DNA from: Paenibacillus sp.
GTDB lineage: Bacteria; Bacillota; Bacilli; Paenibacillales; Paenibacillaceae
Reading direction: 5' to 3'
DNA: 64,000 nt
NCBI GenBank assembly: GCA_031254035.1
Contig: JAIRVF010000153.1
Coordinates: 1 to 64,000, forward strand
Positions 6,017 to 37,314 of the stretch are shown here, in pieces (the first letter of the stretch is position 1; every line of letters starts with the position of its first letter). The notes under the pieces are model-generated. The model was given only the letters and a program-made list of their open reading frames with translations. It was not told the DNA's origin and searched no databases. The position numbers and the translations under genes were made by a program.

Positions 6017-6122
6017 TTAGGCGCGATCAAAAAAATAGTGAATCAGATTTGAACGAAAATCGACAATCGTTAGGCTACTTTCGGCAAATCGAATGATCTA
6101 TTATTTTTTTGATCGCGCCTAA
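6017..6122. repeat. GGCGCGATC inverted-repeat element, copy 1
   Basis: Perfect 21-bp arms (6017-6037 and 6102-6122), read as TTAGGCGCGATC then seven A then TA, flank a 64-base centre. The centre has its own short inverted repeat (GATTTG/CAAATC). A related element sits at 36464-36526. TTA/TAA at the outer ends would fit a TA target duplication, as in MITEs of the mariner/IS630 type, but this is inference. Confidence 0.8.
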
Positions 6123-31782: not shown

Positions 31783-32307
31783 ATGAGTAAACAGGCGCTT
31801 CTTGTTATTGATATACAGGTTGGCATGTTCTCGGAATCCGATCCGGTATATGATGGTGCTGCCCTGCTAGGGCGGATTAATGTATTGCTGCATAACGCTA
31901 GAACTAGCGGTATTCCCGTCATTTACGTGCAGCATAACGAAGGACCAGGTGAGCAATTGGAAACAGAAACTGTCGCATGGGAGATCCATCCGTCCATTGC
32001 GCCAGAACCGGAAGACACCATTATCCAGAAATTTATGCCGGATTCGTTTCATGAAACTAGTCTACAGGAAGTGCTATCGAGTAGAGGCATCGAAAACCTC
32101 GTTATTGCGGGAATTCAGACGGATTGTTGCGTTAATGCGACCAGTCGGCGTGCCGGAGAGCTGGGATATGATATCACCGTTGTGGAAGACGCCCATAGCA
32201 CATGGGGACAAGGGGAGAAAACCGCAGCGGAAATCATCGCAGAACATAACGAGCAGTTCCAGAAATTTGCTGAAATAAAGAAAACGCAGGACATTACATT
32301 TAGTTAG
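31783..32307 (+). CDS. Isochorismatase-family cysteine hydrolase
   Basis: 174 residues, normal for the family. LLVIDIQVGMF holds the catalytic Asp, a Lys of the triad lies in IIQKFMPDSFHET, and the nucleophile Cys in VIAGIQTDCCVNATSRRA. ITVVEDAHSTW is the usual late strand. Substrates of relatives include nicotinamide, carbamoyl-sarcosine and isochorismate, and nothing nearby picks one. GGGAGGAG precedes ATG. Confidence 0.9.
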   Translation: MSKQALLVIDIQVGMFSESDPVYDGAALLGRINVLLHNARTSGIPVIYVQHNEGPGEQLETETVAWEIHPSIAPEPEDTIIQKFMPDSFHETSLQEVLSSRGIENLVIAGIQTDCCVNATSRRAGELGYDITVVEDAHSTWGQGEKTAAEIIAEHNEQFQKFAEIKKTQDITFS

Positions 32308-32310
32308 TTC

Positions 32311-32376
32311 GGAAGAACGATCCGTAACCGCAGAACTCTTCTCGCACAATGCCAAGAACTAATTTCAGTATTGAGC
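32311..32376. repeat. Intergenic repeat, AAGAACTAATTT type, copy 3
   Basis: AAGAACGATCCGTAACC then, after 20 bases, CAAGAACTAATTTCAGTATT and GAGC. Same order as in copy 2 at 27533. Confidence 0.7.
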
Positions 32377-32412
32377 CTTTCATGCCATACTAATCAAAGG
32401 GAGATGATATCA

Positions 32413-32928
32413 ATGTCTACACGTCCAATCAGTACAGAGTACAATCCGTATTTTAAGAGATACATAGATTTGGTTCCCGAGGGGGATATCATCGATATTC
32501 TGGAAAAGTCACTTGATGCAACAAGCGAACTCTTTGGAGCACTTACGGAGGAGCAAGCCAATTATCGGTATGAACCGGGGAAATGGAGCATGAAGGAAGT
32601 ACTCGGCCATATCTCGGATAATGAACGGATTATGAGCTATCGCTTGCTCCGGATTGCTAGAGGGGATCGGACTTCCCTCTCGGGTTATGACCAGGATGAA
32701 CTGATGTGTGGAGCCGCGTTTGACGCATGTCGGTTGTCCGATTTGTTGGAGGAATATCAGTTGATCCGCAAATCTACGCTGGCTCTCCTTCGCGGATTGC
32801 CCGAAACCGCTTGGTCCAGAATCGGATTGGTCGACGAGAGTGAATCATCGGCCAATGCATGGGCCTACATTATAGCCGGGCATGAACTTCATCATGTGAA
32901 GGTAATACGGGATAAATATCTTTCTTAG
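32413..32928 (+). CDS. DinB family protein
   Basis: About 171 residues, four-helix bundle of the DinB/YfiT type. LTEEQANYRYEPGKWSMKEV with GHISDNERIM supplies the first metal His, and AGHELHHVKVI the later pair of His. Members include thiol-dependent S-transferases such as bacillithiol transferase, but assignment here is not safe. ATG 32413 follows AAGGGAGA. Terminator at 32955. Confidence 0.88.
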   Translation: MSTRPISTEYNPYFKRYIDLVPEGDIIDILEKSLDATSELFGALTEEQANYRYEPGKWSMKEVLGHISDNERIMSYRLLRIARGDRTSLSGYDQDELMCGAAFDACRLSDLLEEYQLIRKSTLALLRGLPETAWSRIGLVDESESSANAWAYIIAGHELHHVKVIRDKYLS

Positions 32929-32954
32929 AATTGCAGCAACGGTGATAAAAAATG

Positions 32955-32989
32955 AAACGGGACACTGGTATCGGTGAATCCCGTTTTTC
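32955..32989 (+). terminator. Terminator of the DinB gene
   Basis: AAACGGGA/TCCCGTTT with inner CACTG/CGGTG, then TTC. Confidence 0.75.
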
Positions 32990-33080
32990 TTTCAGACAAT
33001 GCCACAATTTTGCTTTTATATTCCCCAATTCCTTCTTCCCGCTCTAAAAGAGGGTATACTGTGCTTGAAGAGGTGATTAA

Positions 33081-33653
33081 ATGAGGGACAAATATGAATC
33101 AGCACCGCTGACGGAGGAGAAATGGAAGGCAATCATCGGAAATGACAAATCGTATGATTTCAAATTTTTTTATGCGGTAAAATCCACTGGGATTTTTTGC
33201 AGACCTTCCTGCAAATCCAAGGCACCTAACCGGGAAAATGTACGAATCTTCATGAGCGCTGAGCAAGCGCAAAGGGAAGAGTTCCGTCCATGCAAGCGAT
33301 GCAAACCTACGGGGGAACGTCTGCCTGACCACGAGTGGGTAGAAGTGATGACCCGGTATATGGACCGAAACTTCACCGAACCTATAAACTTGGGCTTACT
33401 TGGCGAGATTTGCCACGGAAGTCCATATCATTTGCACCGGACCTTCAAGAAAATCATGAACATAACTCCCGTTGAATATTTACAGCGGCTCCGGTTGGAT
33501 CATGCTAAGGATTTGCTGACACAATCCGACCTTCCCGTGGCTGCTATTGGAAAGCAGGTCGGCTTGCCAAACACATCCTATTTAATCTCGTTATTCAAAC
33601 GGAGATTCGGGTACACGCCATCCGAGTATAGAAAGCGAACATTGCAAAATTAG
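33081..33653 (+). CDS. adaA: AdaA: methylphosphotriester-DNA--protein-cysteine methyltransferase and activator
   Basis: 190 residues. The N-terminal Ada zinc domain (about 20-85) has FFYAVKSTGIFCRPSCKSKAP and RPCKRCKP, the four Cys, one of which accepts a methyl from DNA phosphotriesters. The C-terminal AraC-type HTH (about 95-187) has LGEICHGSPYHLHRTFKKI and KQVGLPNTSYLISLFKRRF then YTPSEYRK. Methylated AdaA would activate the adaptive-response genes, here presumably itself and the five genes after it. The -10 TATACT (33055) has a poor -35, as expected for an activator-dependent promoter. Confidence 0.95.
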   Translation: MRDKYESAPLTEEKWKAIIGNDKSYDFKFFYAVKSTGIFCRPSCKSKAPNRENVRIFMSAEQAQREEFRPCKRCKPTGERLPDHEWVEVMTRYMDRNFTEPINLGLLGEICHGSPYHLHRTFKKIMNITPVEYLQRLRLDHAKDLLTQSDLPVAAIGKQVGLPNTSYLISLFKRRFGYTPSEYRKRTLQN

Positions 33654-33677
33654 GATTACGCCATGGAGGTGTTTGTG

Positions 33678-34232
33678 ATGAAAAATCATCAAATTCGAAC
33701 GATATATTGGTCCTTACTTGAATATGAAGACTGGATCCTGCATCTTGCTGCGACAGCAGACGGGCTTTGCTATGTAGGCTCGGCAAATAAGCCGTTTGAG
33801 GAGATGGAAGAGTGGGTCCGCAAACATTTAGGTTCCTGCACCCTGGTAAGAGATGATCAAGCTCTGATGCCTTACAAAGACGAACTGGCAGCTTTCATGG
33901 CAGGAAAACTTGACCGTTTTACGGGTCCATGTGATTTGGTGGGGACTGACTTTCAACGATCGGTTTGGGATGCGCTTTGTAAAATTCCTTACGGAGAGAC
34001 GCGTTCTTATTCCGAAATCGCCGATCTGATCGGTAAACCGGCTGCCGTTCGGGCAGTTGGTTCGGCCATCGGCGCCAATCCAGTTCTAATGTCGGTGCCT
34101 TGTCATCGTGTCATTGGCAAAAATGGAGCCTTAACCGGTTTCCGCGGCGGTCTGGACATGAAAACAAAGCTGCTGGCATTGGAGAAAAGCGCGGCAGTTT
34201 CCCGAAATTCAAAGGCCAACTGCCATGTTTAA
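33678..34232 (+). CDS. ogt: Methylated-DNA--[protein]-cysteine S-methyltransferase
   Basis: Suicide repair protein removing O6-alkyl groups from guanine (AdaB/Ogt type). About 184 residues. GTDFQRSVWDALCKIPYGET (DNA-binding and Tyr region) and the active-site MSVPCHRVIG with the acceptor Cys; GFRGGLDMKTKLLALE follows as usual. GGAGGTG before ATG 33678 makes this the likely start. The 3' end overlaps the next gene by 8 bases, so the genes are coupled. Confidence 0.94.
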   Translation: MKNHQIRTIYWSLLEYEDWILHLAATADGLCYVGSANKPFEEMEEWVRKHLGSCTLVRDDQALMPYKDELAAFMAGKLDRFTGPCDLVGTDFQRSVWDALCKIPYGETRSYSEIADLIGKPAAVRAVGSAIGANPVLMSVPCHRVIGKNGALTGFRGGLDMKTKLLALEKSAAVSRNSKANCHV

Positions 34233-34938
34233 AGGGATAACCGAGCGGATTGTGGACATGGATTGGTCCGCCATACAGTGCAGTTTGGATGAACAGGGAT
34301 TCGCCGTCTTTCCACCGATATTAGAGCCAGAGGAATGTGCTGATTTTATAACGTCTTATGATGCAGAAAACCTGTACAGAAAAACCATCGACATGAAAAG
34401 GTATCGGTTTGGTATCGGGGAGTATAAATATTTCCAATCTCCGCTTTCAGAAACTGTGCAGCAGTTTCGGGAGGGCTTTTATCCGCAGCTGGCTGTAACT
34501 GCAAACCTCTGGATGGAGCGGCTTGGTAAGGAAACGTCCTATCCAACTGCATTAACTGATTTTCTGAGCAAATGTCATGAGGCAGGGCAAAGCCGACCAA
34601 CACCCCTAATTCTTAAATATGAAGCTGGAGGATATAATTGTCTTCATCAGGATTTGTACGGCGATGTATTTTTTCCGTTCCAGGTTGTACTTGTTCTGAA
34701 TCAAAAGGATGTGGATTACGAGGGCGGCGAGTTTTTACTGGTCGAGCAGCGTCCACGCGCACAAAGCAGGGGGCATGTGATCCGGCCGGAGCGTGGAGGC
34801 GGTTTGATTTTTCCAACAAGCTTCCGACCTGTTCAAGGCACAAGGGGATATTACCGGGCAACGCTCCGCCATGGGGTAGGAACCATATCGGCAGGCACGA
34901 GATACAGCTTGGGGATTATTTTTCACGACGCGACATAA
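34225..34938 (+). CDS. 2OG-Fe(II) oxygenase family protein (damage-linked)
   Basis: 237 residues, double-stranded beta-helix dioxygenase. YNCLHQDLYGDVFFPFQVVL gives the His-x-Asp iron pair, then YEGGEFLLVEQRPRAQS, and LRHGVGTISAGTRYSLGIIF holds the distal His and the 2-oxoglutarate-binding Arg. It resembles the PF09859 oxygenases that sit with Ada genes in other bacteria and are annotated as acting on damaged DNA, though not AlkB itself. It overlaps ogt by 8 bases; CAAAGG lies about 9 bases before ATG. Probable role: oxidative removal of an alkyl lesion (inference from context). Confidence 0.85.
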   Translation: MFKGITERIVDMDWSAIQCSLDEQGFAVFPPILEPEECADFITSYDAENLYRKTIDMKRYRFGIGEYKYFQSPLSETVQQFREGFYPQLAVTANLWMERLGKETSYPTALTDFLSKCHEAGQSRPTPLILKYEAGGYNCLHQDLYGDVFFPFQVVLVLNQKDVDYEGGEFLLVEQRPRAQSRGHVIRPERGGGLIFPTSFRPVQGTRGYYRATLRHGVGTISAGTRYSLGIIFHDAT

Positions 34939-34983
34939 GCCGATTTTTTCGTTTAAATCTAAGAAAAGGAGGAGAGGGGCTCT

Positions 34984-35802
34984 ATGGCCTACACGACTGA
35001 ATACAAGACACCTAAATCGATGCTGAACAAAGGTACAGGTTTTTTGTCTGGATATACACATTCACTGAATCCCTACACGGGCTGCTCTTTTGGCTGTTCT
35101 TACTGTTACGTGCGACAGATGCCAGTTTCGACATTTCGCGGCAAACCTTGGGGCACTTGGGTGGACATAAAGCAGGGCGCTGCCGATGTATTCCGCAAAG
35201 AACTGCGCAGAGCCAAAAGCAAAGGACCGGTGACGATTTTCATGTCTTCGAGTACAGATCCGTATCAGCCGGAAGAGGCCAAAACTTGCGTAACCCGCTC
35301 CCTTCTTGAAGTCATGACGGAAGATCCCCCGGATTTTTTGCTTGTCCAAACTAGAAGTCCTCTTCTTAAGCGGGATATTGATTTACTGCTCCGATTGGGT
35401 AACCGGGTAAGAGTCAGCATGACGGTGGAAACCGATCTGGAGGAAATTCGCCGCCACTTTACGCCAGGAACACCACCCATTGAAGCGAGGCTCAGGACAT
35501 TGAAGCTGCTCAAGGAGGCTGGGGTTCCCACACAAGCCACGATTGCACCTGTTCTGCCGAGTAGTGGTGAATTTCCTGCTAGGTTGCGTCCGCTTGTTGA
35601 CCGCATCTGCATTGACGATTATTTTATGGGGGATGGTAGCGGGGGAAAGCGCACACGAAGTTTAGGCATCGAGCGGCTTTATCAGGACTTGGGCATGGAG
35701 GAGTGGTACAGCCGGGAGGCATACCAGAAGGTTTACGAGCGGTTCGTCCAGATATTCCCGGAAAACAACGTGTTCGTCAGTCAAAAAGGTTTTGAACCAT
35801 AA
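34984..35802 (+). CDS. SPL-family radical SAM protein
   Basis: 272 residues, related to spore photoproduct lyase. The [4Fe-4S]/SAM motif is CSFGCSYCYVR (Cys-x3-Cys-x2-Cys) near residue 33. SSSTDPYQPEE is the conserved SAM-loop region, and VRVSMTVETDLEEIRRHFTP and ATIAPVLPSS follow. No DNA-damage substrate is known for this short subgroup, but its place between an Ada-linked oxygenase and an AlkA-type glycosylase suggests lesion repair. GGAGGAG precedes ATG. Confidence 0.88.
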   Translation: MAYTTEYKTPKSMLNKGTGFLSGYTHSLNPYTGCSFGCSYCYVRQMPVSTFRGKPWGTWVDIKQGAADVFRKELRRAKSKGPVTIFMSSSTDPYQPEEAKTCVTRSLLEVMTEDPPDFLLVQTRSPLLKRDIDLLLRLGNRVRVSMTVETDLEEIRRHFTPGTPPIEARLRTLKLLKEAGVPTQATIAPVLPSSGEFPARLRPLVDRICIDDYFMGDGSGGKRTRSLGIERLYQDLGMEEWYSREAYQKVYERFVQIFPENNVFVSQKGFEP

Positions 35803-35837
35803 AGTGAAATGTTGGATTCGACTGTAAGAAAGGCGGT

Positions 35838-36464
35838 ATGGCGGATATGTCAATCATCAAAACCAAGTTTTTTGAATATGGCGACGCAGAAACGAATGTG
35901 CTGAAAAAAGCGGACCCTGTCCTTGGTGAAGCGATCACAAGATTGGGGAAAGTAGATCGTGCCACCATGCCGGATCTGTTTCATGCATTGGTTTATGCGG
36001 TCGTTGGTCAGCTGATTTCGGCCAAAACTGCACAATCGAGTTGGGAGCGGATGCAAATCCGGTTCGGATCTATGGATCCTCGTACCATTGTGAAACAAAC
36101 CCCGGAACAAATCCAAGCCTGCGGACTGACTATGAAAAAGGCGGTATGCATTCATCAGATTGCCACCAAGATTGAGTCGGGGGAGTTAGATCTGGATGAA
36201 CTCATTTATATGCCTGACCACGAGGTCATCCACAGGTTAACATCCCTGAATGGTATCGGCAAATGGACCGCCGAAATGCTGCTGTTTCATGCCTTGGAGC
36301 GGCCTGATGTAATGAGCTGGGGAGATATTGCGATTCGGCGGGGGATGATGAAACTGTATGGGCTGGACAGCATAACGAAAAAGCAATTTGACCAGTACAG
36401 GGAACATTATTCCCCCTACGGCTCTGTAGCATCCATTTATTTATGGGAAATATCGTTTGAGTAG
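35838..36464 (+). CDS. DNA-3-methyladenine glycosylase, AlkA type (HhH-GPD)
   Basis: Base-excision enzyme removing alkylated purines. 208 residues. ALVYAVVGQLISAKTAQSSW is the HhH-GPD entry helix; LTSLNGIGKWTAEMLLFHAL is the helix-hairpin-helix; MSWGDIAIRRGMMKLYG carries the catalytic Asp. It lacks the N-terminal beta domain of E. coli AlkA, like many Bacillus relatives. Its TAG stop is made by the first bases of the inverted-repeat element that starts at 36464. 35 bases after the radical SAM gene. Confidence 0.92.
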   Translation: MADMSIIKTKFFEYGDAETNVLKKADPVLGEAITRLGKVDRATMPDLFHALVYAVVGQLISAKTAQSSWERMQIRFGSMDPRTIVKQTPEQIQACGLTMKKAVCIHQIATKIESGELDLDELIYMPDHEVIHRLTSLNGIGKWTAEMLLFHALERPDVMSWGDIAIRRGMMKLYGLDSITKKQFDQYREHYSPYGSVASIYLWEISFE

Positions 36465-36526
36465 GCGCGATCAAGAAAATAACAATCAATTTCTTGATCG
36501 CGCCCTGTTATTTTTTTGATCACGTC
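36464..36526. repeat. GGCGCGATC inverted-repeat element, copy 2
   Basis: GGCGCGATCAAGAAA (36464-36478) pairs perfectly with TTTCTTGATCGCGCC (36490-36504). The longer arm 36464-36484 can instead pair with 36506-36526 (three mismatches), so two exclusive hairpins are possible. Related to 6017-6122. It lies between the AlkA-type and AlkD-type genes and touches the first one's stop codon. Confidence 0.75.
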
Positions 36527-36543
36527 TGAGAAAGGAGATTCAT

Positions 36544-37233
36544 ATGGAAACGGTTATTCGGGAGAAATTGTTGGAACTTGCAGACGATGAATACCAAAAA
36601 TTCTCGGCGTCATTAATTCCGGGGATATCAAACATGCTTGGCGTACGGATTCCCGAGCTGCGGAAAATGGCCAAACAGATCGCCAAAGAAGACTGGCGCG
36701 CCTATCTTCAGCATGCGGAAAGCGATTATTTTGAAGAAATTATGCTGCAAGGCATGTTGATTGAATATGTTAAAGCGGATGTGGACGAGAAGCTGGAATT
36801 GACGTCCTCTTTTATTCCCAAAATTGACAACTGGTCCGTGTGTGATAGTTTTTGTACAGGATTGAAATTCACAAAAAACTATCAGGATCTGGTGTGGGAG
36901 TTTCTGCAGCCCTACCTGCAATCCGACAAGGAATATGAAATCCGGTTTGGTGTGGTTATGCTGCTTAATTATTATGTGAATGAAACCTACATTGAACGTG
37001 TGCTACACATCCTGGACAACATCCGGTATGATGCCTATTATGTCAGAATGGCTGTAGCCTGGGCGTTATCCATTTGTTACGTAAAACAGCCTAAACCGAC
37101 CATGACATATTTACAGCAAAGTTCCGTTGATGATTTTACATATAATAAGGCGCTGCAAAAAATCACTGAATCTTTGCGTGTTGATGCCGAAACCAAGAGA
37201 TTAATCCGAAGCATGAAGCGGTTAAATTCGTAG
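36544..37233 (+). CDS. DNA alkylation repair protein (AlkD-like)
   Basis: 229 residues of HEAT-like helical repeats. GISNMLGVRIPELRKMAKQI is the usual opening; KIDNWSVCDSFCTGLKF carries the conserved D-W-x-x-x-D region; YYVRMAVAWALSICYVK closes the superhelix. AlkD proteins excise bulky or charged N3/N7-alkyl bases without flipping them out. AAAGGAG sits 6-7 bases before ATG, just outside the repeat element. Sixth gene in the alkylation block; terminator at 37269. Confidence 0.9.
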   Translation: METVIREKLLELADDEYQKFSASLIPGISNMLGVRIPELRKMAKQIAKEDWRAYLQHAESDYFEEIMLQGMLIEYVKADVDEKLELTSSFIPKIDNWSVCDSFCTGLKFTKNYQDLVWEFLQPYLQSDKEYEIRFGVVMLLNYYVNETYIERVLHILDNIRYDAYYVRMAVAWALSICYVKQPKPTMTYLQQSSVDDFTYNKALQKITESLRVDAETKRLIRSMKRLNS

Positions 37234-37268: not shown

Positions 37269-37314
37269 CAAAAGGGTAATTCTTCAGAAGAGCTGAAGAT
37301 TTATCCTTTTTTGC
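37269..37314 (+). terminator. Terminator of the alkylation-repair block
   Basis: AAAAGGGTAATTCTTCAG against CTGAAGATTTATCCTTTT, then TT. Confidence 0.7.

Follow-up and report, generated by a model that had tools for sequence, protein, structure and literature searches.

Ada, Ogt, AlkA/AlkD and AlkB are often taken to make up DNA alkylation repair in full. What are a 2-oxoglutarate (2OG)/Fe(II) oxygenase and a radical S-adenosylmethionine (SAM) protein doing in an Ada operon? The question is raised by a 64,000-nucleotide stretch of Paenibacillus sp. (assembly GCA_031254035.1, contig JAIRVF010000153.1, positions 1 to 64,000; hereafter the window), in which adaA, ogt, a PF09859-type oxygenase gene, a radical SAM gene, alkA and alkD follow one another (Table 1). 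An earlier note had proposed a six-gene alkylation-response island here, with the oxygenase and the radical SAM protein as two extra chemistries for alkylated DNA. Judged from sequence, the locus is a real, recurrent and operator-linked extension of the Ada response; a chance cluster was ruled out by the recurring gene order and the shared box. By comparison between genomes, membership of the Ada regulon has strong support for the oxygenase and good support for the radical SAM protein. We consider it probable that the locus is an expanded Ada regulon on one promoter, with the oxygenase acting as an oxidative dealkylase and the radical SAM protein as a lesion-reversal enzyme.

Ada operator and recurrence in Bacilli

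Six uninterrupted open reading frames (ORFs), all on the plus strand, span positions 33081-37233 of the window with intergenic distances of 9, -8, 45, 35 and 79 bp. The six alkylation-response genes thus run in one direction with small gaps and one overlap, as the earlier note had described, and its family assignments were matched by Pfam. AdaA carries Ada_Zn_binding (PF02805, 3.5e-29), with its four cysteines visible as CRPSC...CKRC in the translation, and HTH_18/AraC (8.2e-23). Ogt matched DNA_binding_1 (MGMT, PF01035, 1.9e-34) and has PCHRV in its translation; its true start is probably the ATG at 33678, with GGAGGTG just 5' of it by eye. The oxygenase matched PF09859 (2.5e-78; 262 bits, cut-off 26.2) and, more weakly, 2OG-FeII_Oxy_3, a general model (29.6 bits, cut-off 27). 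The radical SAM protein matched Radical_SAM (7e-19), AlkD matched DNA_alkylation (PF08713, 9.6e-20; 71.6 bits, cut-off 21) and AlkA matched HhH-GPD (PF00730, 7.3e-11; 42.8 bits, cut-off 26.2) as its sole Pfam family at E 0.001. In Bacillus subtilis, sensor and methyltransferase are likewise two separate genes, adaA and adaB (PMC1839093, in the portions covered). Beyond these two, the unit here encodes an oxygenase of the PF09859 type, a radical SAM protein and both AlkA and AlkD.

A conserved Ada box, recognized by its pattern, is present before the Ada unit. The A and B boxes of E. coli Ada are spaced by six bases. They read AAT and GCAA (PMC10957082, in the portions covered), and TTGC-N6-ATT is the reverse complement of AAT-N6-GCAA. 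Within 70 AdaA upstream regions, ATCTTGCT was common to 57. As to the -10 box, GGTATACT, GTTATACT and TATAATGT occurred in 30, 15 and 14 of these regions, respectively. An operator matrix was built from 43 distinct sites upstream of AdaA, the window site among them; 19 of the 70 regions were left out, their exact core being absent or too near the edge. The matrix consensus is TTTCGnTATCTTGCTtTTacATTCcaAAAtgCGTACA, with TATACT or TATAAT about 18 bases further on (by eye). In the window, the only position scoring above 5 bits was 33000-33038 (29.8 bits, itself one of the 43 training sites). Following removal of eight related sites, including the window's own, from the training set, this position still came first (12.3 against 2.5). 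The lack of a good -35 is what an activator-dependent promoter would show.

In 1.75 Mb of collected loci, 125 operator sites of at least 12 bits were found, preceding AdaA (68), Ogt (26), the oxygenase (20), short AlkA (9), AlkD (1) and nothing named (1). The AdaA share is largely circular, as it reflects the training set; the other shares are not, though the loci are related. Oxygenase loci were taken as the best 80 of 351 relatives in GTDB contigs. An operator site was present in 73 of these 80, that is in 43/44 with AdaA and 30/36 without AdaA, the latter comprising solo oxygenases (17/22), Ogt-first loci (12/12) and oxygenase-radical SAM loci (1/2). Across 81 genomes of the genus, the exact 17-base operator pattern occurred 32 times, against 2 for the reversed control. 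In the 30 loci examined, the site lay beside AdaA (24), Ogt (1), an AlkA-AlkD pair (1, L180), a divergent AlkA-like ORF (1, L193) or other genes (3). A looser pattern returned two sites in the window's genome, namely the window site and one inside an unrelated ORF.

Of the 80 oxygenase loci, 28 have the order AdaA-Ogt-oxygenase-radical SAM. Other arrangements were AdaA-Ogt-oxygenase (15), Ogt-oxygenase (6), Ogt-oxygenase-radical SAM (6), AdaA-oxygenase (1), oxygenase-radical SAM (2) and the oxygenase alone (22). A window-like AlkA or AlkD (at least 50% identity) was held by 16/80 loci, in line (e.g., L002-L005) or convergent (e.g., L034 and L052). Among 299 genomes of the class, the oxygenase was detected in 25 and the radical SAM profile in 91 (E 1e-50), and both genes lay at most 2.5 kb apart in 18 of the 25 oxygenase-positive genomes. 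Within the genus the oxygenase is patchy (16/81 genomes). Some genomes sit in two collections, so the loci are not all independent. Row L036, with a stop codon, was dropped from A1. A single PF09859 match and no SPL-family match were obtained in the window's own genome (5.9 Mb, 157 contigs), and the nearest oxygenases among named genomes belong to Paenibacillus species.

Table 1. Positions of genes and signals in the window
Feature	Position	Strand	Residues, motif or basis
Hairpin then TTTTTC, likely terminator of upstream DinB_2 gene	32954..32987	+	fold -17.1 kcal/mol
Conserved Ada operator	33000..33038	+	core TTGCTTTTATATT at 33010-33022, inverted AAT-N6-GCAA
-10 box	33055..33060	+	TATACT, no good -35; by reading
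AdaA	33081..33653	+	Ada zinc domain with four cysteines and AraC-type helix-turn-helix; sensor, activator
Ogt/AdaB-type O6-methylguanine-DNA methyltransferase	33663..34232	+	PCHRV active-site motif
PF09859 2OG/Fe(II) oxygenase	34225..34938	+	H141, D143, H216, R226
Radical SAM protein, spore photoproduct lyase (SPL)-type fold	34984..35802	+	C34-x3-C38-x2-C41, Y40, Y42, C209
Short AlkA-type HhH-GPD glycosylase	35838..36464	+	Pfam
Short dispersed-repeat copy with terminator-like hairpin (36464-36478 / 36490-36504)	36464..36527	+	between alkA and alkD
AlkD-type DNA alkylation repair protein (PF08713)	36544..37233	+	Pfam
Hairpin with T run, likely terminator behind alkD	37270..37310	+	fold -21.0 kcal/mol

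The PF09859 oxygenase

The HxD...H...R residues H141, D143, H216 and R226 were kept in 36/36 oxygenases. Together with Q175, R178 and R182, they were invariant in a set of 14 (11 from plasmids and three from Bacilli loci). No match to the AlkB family (PF13532) was obtained in the oxygenase at E 0.001. By profile search, the AlkB family was also missing from the window's genome and from all 299 class (Bacilli) genomes (0/299), with 3/14 control genomes positive. When solved structures were searched for proteins related in sequence to the oxygenase, a single-sequence query gave none and a profile query one row, a chance match. The 50 fold matches listed did not include AlkB, which excludes nothing about AlkB likeness.

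These counts (AlkB 0/299, oxygenase 25/299) are what would be expected if the oxygenase were the Bacilli replacement for AlkB, a demethylase of 1-methyladenine and 3-methylcytosine with no new chemistry. We think this rather unlikely, since the oxygenase family and AlkB stand in one cluster in four of ten annotated plasmid loci; the oxygenase is therefore not just a stand-in for AlkB. The plasmid loci were viewed out of 88 plasmid records matched by the oxygenase; an eleventh stretch carried no annotation. In 9/10 the oxygenase was accompanied by Ada, Ogt or both, the Rhizobium locus being without either. No strong site was found with the window's operator matrix in the nine non-Rhizobium plasmid loci (best 9.0 bits, L148).

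Three of the plasmids show particular arrangements. A 26-kb Staphylococcus saprophyticus plasmid (L148) carries the oxygenase, a radical SAM protein, a DNA glycosylase, Ada and Ogt in one cluster. On an Acetobacter pasteurianus plasmid (L145, 2099-5899), ada, two tandem 2OG oxygenases, alkB and DNA-3-methyladenine glycosylase I form one run. A Tsukamurella plasmid (L151, 2366-5324) has a sigma-70 family factor between two methyltransferase genes, followed by the oxygenase and an AlkB-type gene; it is perhaps a sigma-controlled version of the alkylation response.

A comparable gene has been described in Caulobacter, where ccna_00745, predicted to encode a 2OG dioxygenase, shares an operon with an Ada-like gene and shows the strongest induction of all genes under methylation damage (PMC10957082, in the portions covered). 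A PF09859 match is present in Caulobacter vibrioides, a control of the PF09859 search, and AlkB is at a different locus there, CC0009 (according to the portions of PMC1839093 covered). Therefore, ccna_00745 is likely the PF09859 gene and an orthologue of the window oxygenase. No deletion phenotype of ccna_00745 was seen in the portions of PMC10957082 covered, whose text names the gene twice only. The Caulobacter Cada2 regulon thus resembles the unit here in its oxygenase gene beside an Ada-like gene; the Cada2 activator differs in being without the A-box domain and in using a B+X box, and no radical SAM gene is named in the same portions.

The E. coli regulon (ada-alkB, alkA and aidB) shares the A box AAT and B box GCAA elements with the unit here. 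There, too, a single activator governs a methyltransferase, a glycosylase and an oxygenase of the 2OG type (PMC3788762 and PMC4437013, in the portions covered). In contrast, the oxygenase here is PF09859 and not PF13532, the box is inverted, and the six genes are without AidB and add the radical SAM protein and AlkD.

Phage cargo was considered and rejected: a search of phages gave no match, and two peptide patterns in IMG/VR gave 16 stretches with 0 relatives.

The radical SAM protein

In SPL, Cys140 is the H-donor cysteine. The earlier note had called the radical SAM protein SPL-like, and this holds in part. Its predicted structure has SPL (PDB 4fhf/4fhc) as the nearest solved fold, and the CxxxCxxC motif and both neighbouring tyrosines are shared. 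SPL Cys140 (of 4fhc), aligned via the C140S and C140A chains, corresponds to Ser90 here; across 30 sequences, this position carries Ser 27 times and Ala three times. The protein has 272 aa, against a 368-residue SPL chain. It scores below the cut-offs of the SPL family model PF20903 (19 against 27 bits) and of the NCBIfam model photo_TT_lyase (27.8 bits against 400). The nearest sequence models, PA0069, Rv2578c and mobile pair B radical SAM (NCBIfam), gave 126.8, 97.7 and 99.6 bits, with curated cut-offs (360, 430 and 410) far above these scores.

A profile search of the class genomes yielded 42 close homologues (E below 1e-146), of which 18 adjoin the oxygenase. Of the other 24, 14 were examined and 11 stand directly behind AdaA, AdaA-Ogt or Ogt. 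Nine of these 11 are in genomes without a detected oxygenase (in one, G068, the radical SAM match contains a stop codon) and two in genomes with the oxygenase on another contig. Overall, 29/32 close homologues examined lie beside the oxygenase or AdaA/Ogt. The exceptions are L107, L108 and L110, the last with an adjoining AlkD and an operator-like site. An ordinary SPL for UV damage, placed here by accident, would account for the fold; given the subthreshold scores, the replacement of Cys140 and the close homologues adjoining AdaA or Ogt, we regard it as very improbable.

In a quick maximum-likelihood tree of 88 radical SAM rows, one clade (Shimodaira-Hasegawa-like approximate likelihood ratio test 97) held 61 rows, 58 of them at most 2.5 kb from AdaA, Ogt or the oxygenase. 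Stop-containing and identical rows were dropped; the tree has long branches, including the Staphylococcus row, and a midpoint root. The L135/L138 pair and the protein encoded on the Staphylococcus plasmid are placed outside the main clade, so the Ada linkage may have arisen more than once. Weaker matches were examined for 26 of 51, and an Ogt-type gene adjoins three (L135, L137 and L138). These three belong to a distant clade of radical SAM proteins, and no AdaA match lies in their vicinity. Neighbour ORFs of L107, L108 and L119-L138 were scanned (40 of the 56 ORFs beside the radical SAM genes of L107, L108 and L119-L144). No common pathway emerged, and the only DNA-repair family seen more than once was O6-methylguanine methyltransferase (3/40).

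In the open-licence literature searched, no proven substrate was found for the oxygenase or the radical SAM protein, in agreement with the earlier note. The same search gave no on-topic paper for PF09859/DUF2086 and none joining Ada operons and radical SAM proteins, which says little about absence.

Extent of the unit and proposed response

The hairpin at 32954-32987 is likely the terminator of the DinB_2 gene, and the Ada unit would therefore begin 3' of 32987; this hairpin was absent from the consensus scan of the window. Behind alkD, the scan gave a shorter stem (37281-37299) within the larger hairpin. Isochorismatase-type and DinB_2 genes (31783-32925) directly precede the Ada unit and stand at the same place in L002, L005 and L170; because of this recurrence, a detoxification role is possible.

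At the 3' end, the single six-gene unit of the earlier note stands as to genes and order; alkD, however, lies 3' of a terminator-like hairpin, which makes co-transcription of all six genes doubtful. The alkA-alkD gap contains a 15-bp perfect stem followed by a T run (-29.9 kcal/mol, z -4.57). None of 15 other alkA-alkD gaps gave better than -12.1 kcal/mol, four being too short to fold. The hairpin arm is a dispersed repeat, with 102 exact matches in the window's genome, 34 in G310 and 0-1 in 39 other genomes of the genus. A long copy of about 100 bp is found at 6020-6119 of the window, and the repeat has the ends GGCGCGATCAARAAA; it is perhaps a young, MITE-like (miniature inverted-repeat transposable element) element. 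An attenuator (alternative pairing 36463-36484/36506-36527) was dropped, as the pairing belongs to the dispersed repeat.

With this hairpin and no operator before alkD, it is quite possible, if short of probable, that in this genome alkD is transcribed on its own and does not belong to the Ada unit. On the other side, 15 relatives hold alkA and alkD 14-79 bp apart with no comparable hairpin, and the consensus scan gave no promoter-like site between hairpin and alkD. In addition, an operator match precedes alkA in nine alkA-alkD pairs located away from the Ada operon (none for the pair of L043), so alkD seems a regulon member as a rule. Its expression in this genome may be cut by the repeat insert.

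As in the Ada family, AdaA would accept, on a cysteine bound to zinc, a methyl group of a phosphotriester in DNA, and the methylated protein would bind the inverted Ada box at 33010-33022. Bound AdaA would then activate adaA-ogt-oxygenase-radical SAM-alkA, with some read-through into alkD. Ogt would reverse O6-methylguanine, and AlkA and AlkD would excise N3/N7-alkyl purines. The PF09859 enzyme would hydroxylate, with Fe(II)/2OG, the alkyl group on damaged nucleic acid, which would leave as an aldehyde. This enzyme would be the sole oxidative branch of the regulon, within a class in which searches for AlkB found none. To reverse a lesion that the others cannot, the radical SAM enzyme would use a 5'-deoxyadenosyl radical, with chemistry as in SPL and a different H-atom handling. 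We know of no lesion besides the spore photoproduct that is repaired by 5'-deoxyadenosyl radical chemistry.

Both proteins could also be co-induced with Ada without acting on DNA, with alkylated RNA or free nucleotides, protein modification or detoxification of alkylating agents as their task. The predicted oxygenase structure, closest to prolyl hydroxylases and other P4H/PHD2-type oxygenases, and the acidity of the protein (charge -4) point that way, as do lipoyl synthase, NifB and viperin among the nearest radical SAM folds after SPL. Such targets nevertheless appear unlikely: the remaining operon members are DNA-repair families, the methyltransferase is the sole repeated DNA-repair family beside mostly non-Ada radical SAM relatives, and DNA is the substrate of SPL, the nearest solved structure.

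The fold and charge of the oxygenase also weigh against the expanded DNA-repair regulon that we prefer, together with the following. The oxygenase shares a cluster with AlkB on the Acetobacter, Paracoccus, Roseateles and Tsukamurella plasmids. The box is missing in 7/80 oxygenase loci (L006, L017, L018, L019, L021, L075 and L081), and L006 has the full four-gene order. The exact genus pattern misses the window's own box because one base differs. None of the 57 non-AdaA operator sites precedes a radical SAM gene, and a 68%-identical radical SAM copy on a Paenibacillus plasmid is without Ada neighbours and without a box. The linked fraction of the clade is inflated, most tree rows having been gathered via the oxygenase, and alkD stands behind its hairpin.

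As to the extra chemistries, membership in the response is supported by the shared operator, the recurrence of each gene without the other, gene contexts mostly outside Bacillota and the induced Caulobacter oxygenase; alkylated DNA as the substrate we infer. More broadly, and tentatively, the Ada response of many Bacilli may include radical-SAM direct reversal of alkylation damage and a second, AlkB-independent class of oxidative dealkylase, kept in Ada clusters of several bacterial groups, some beside AlkB.

What is new here is the evidence that the oxygenase and the radical SAM protein belong to the Ada response. Two further catalysts under one operator would mean either lesions whose importance is not known or targets other than DNA. 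This question is open to direct test thanks to the operator and the compactness of the loci, and the function of the PF09859 enzyme is naturally studied in the sampled Bacilli, with AlkB in none of the 299 genomes.

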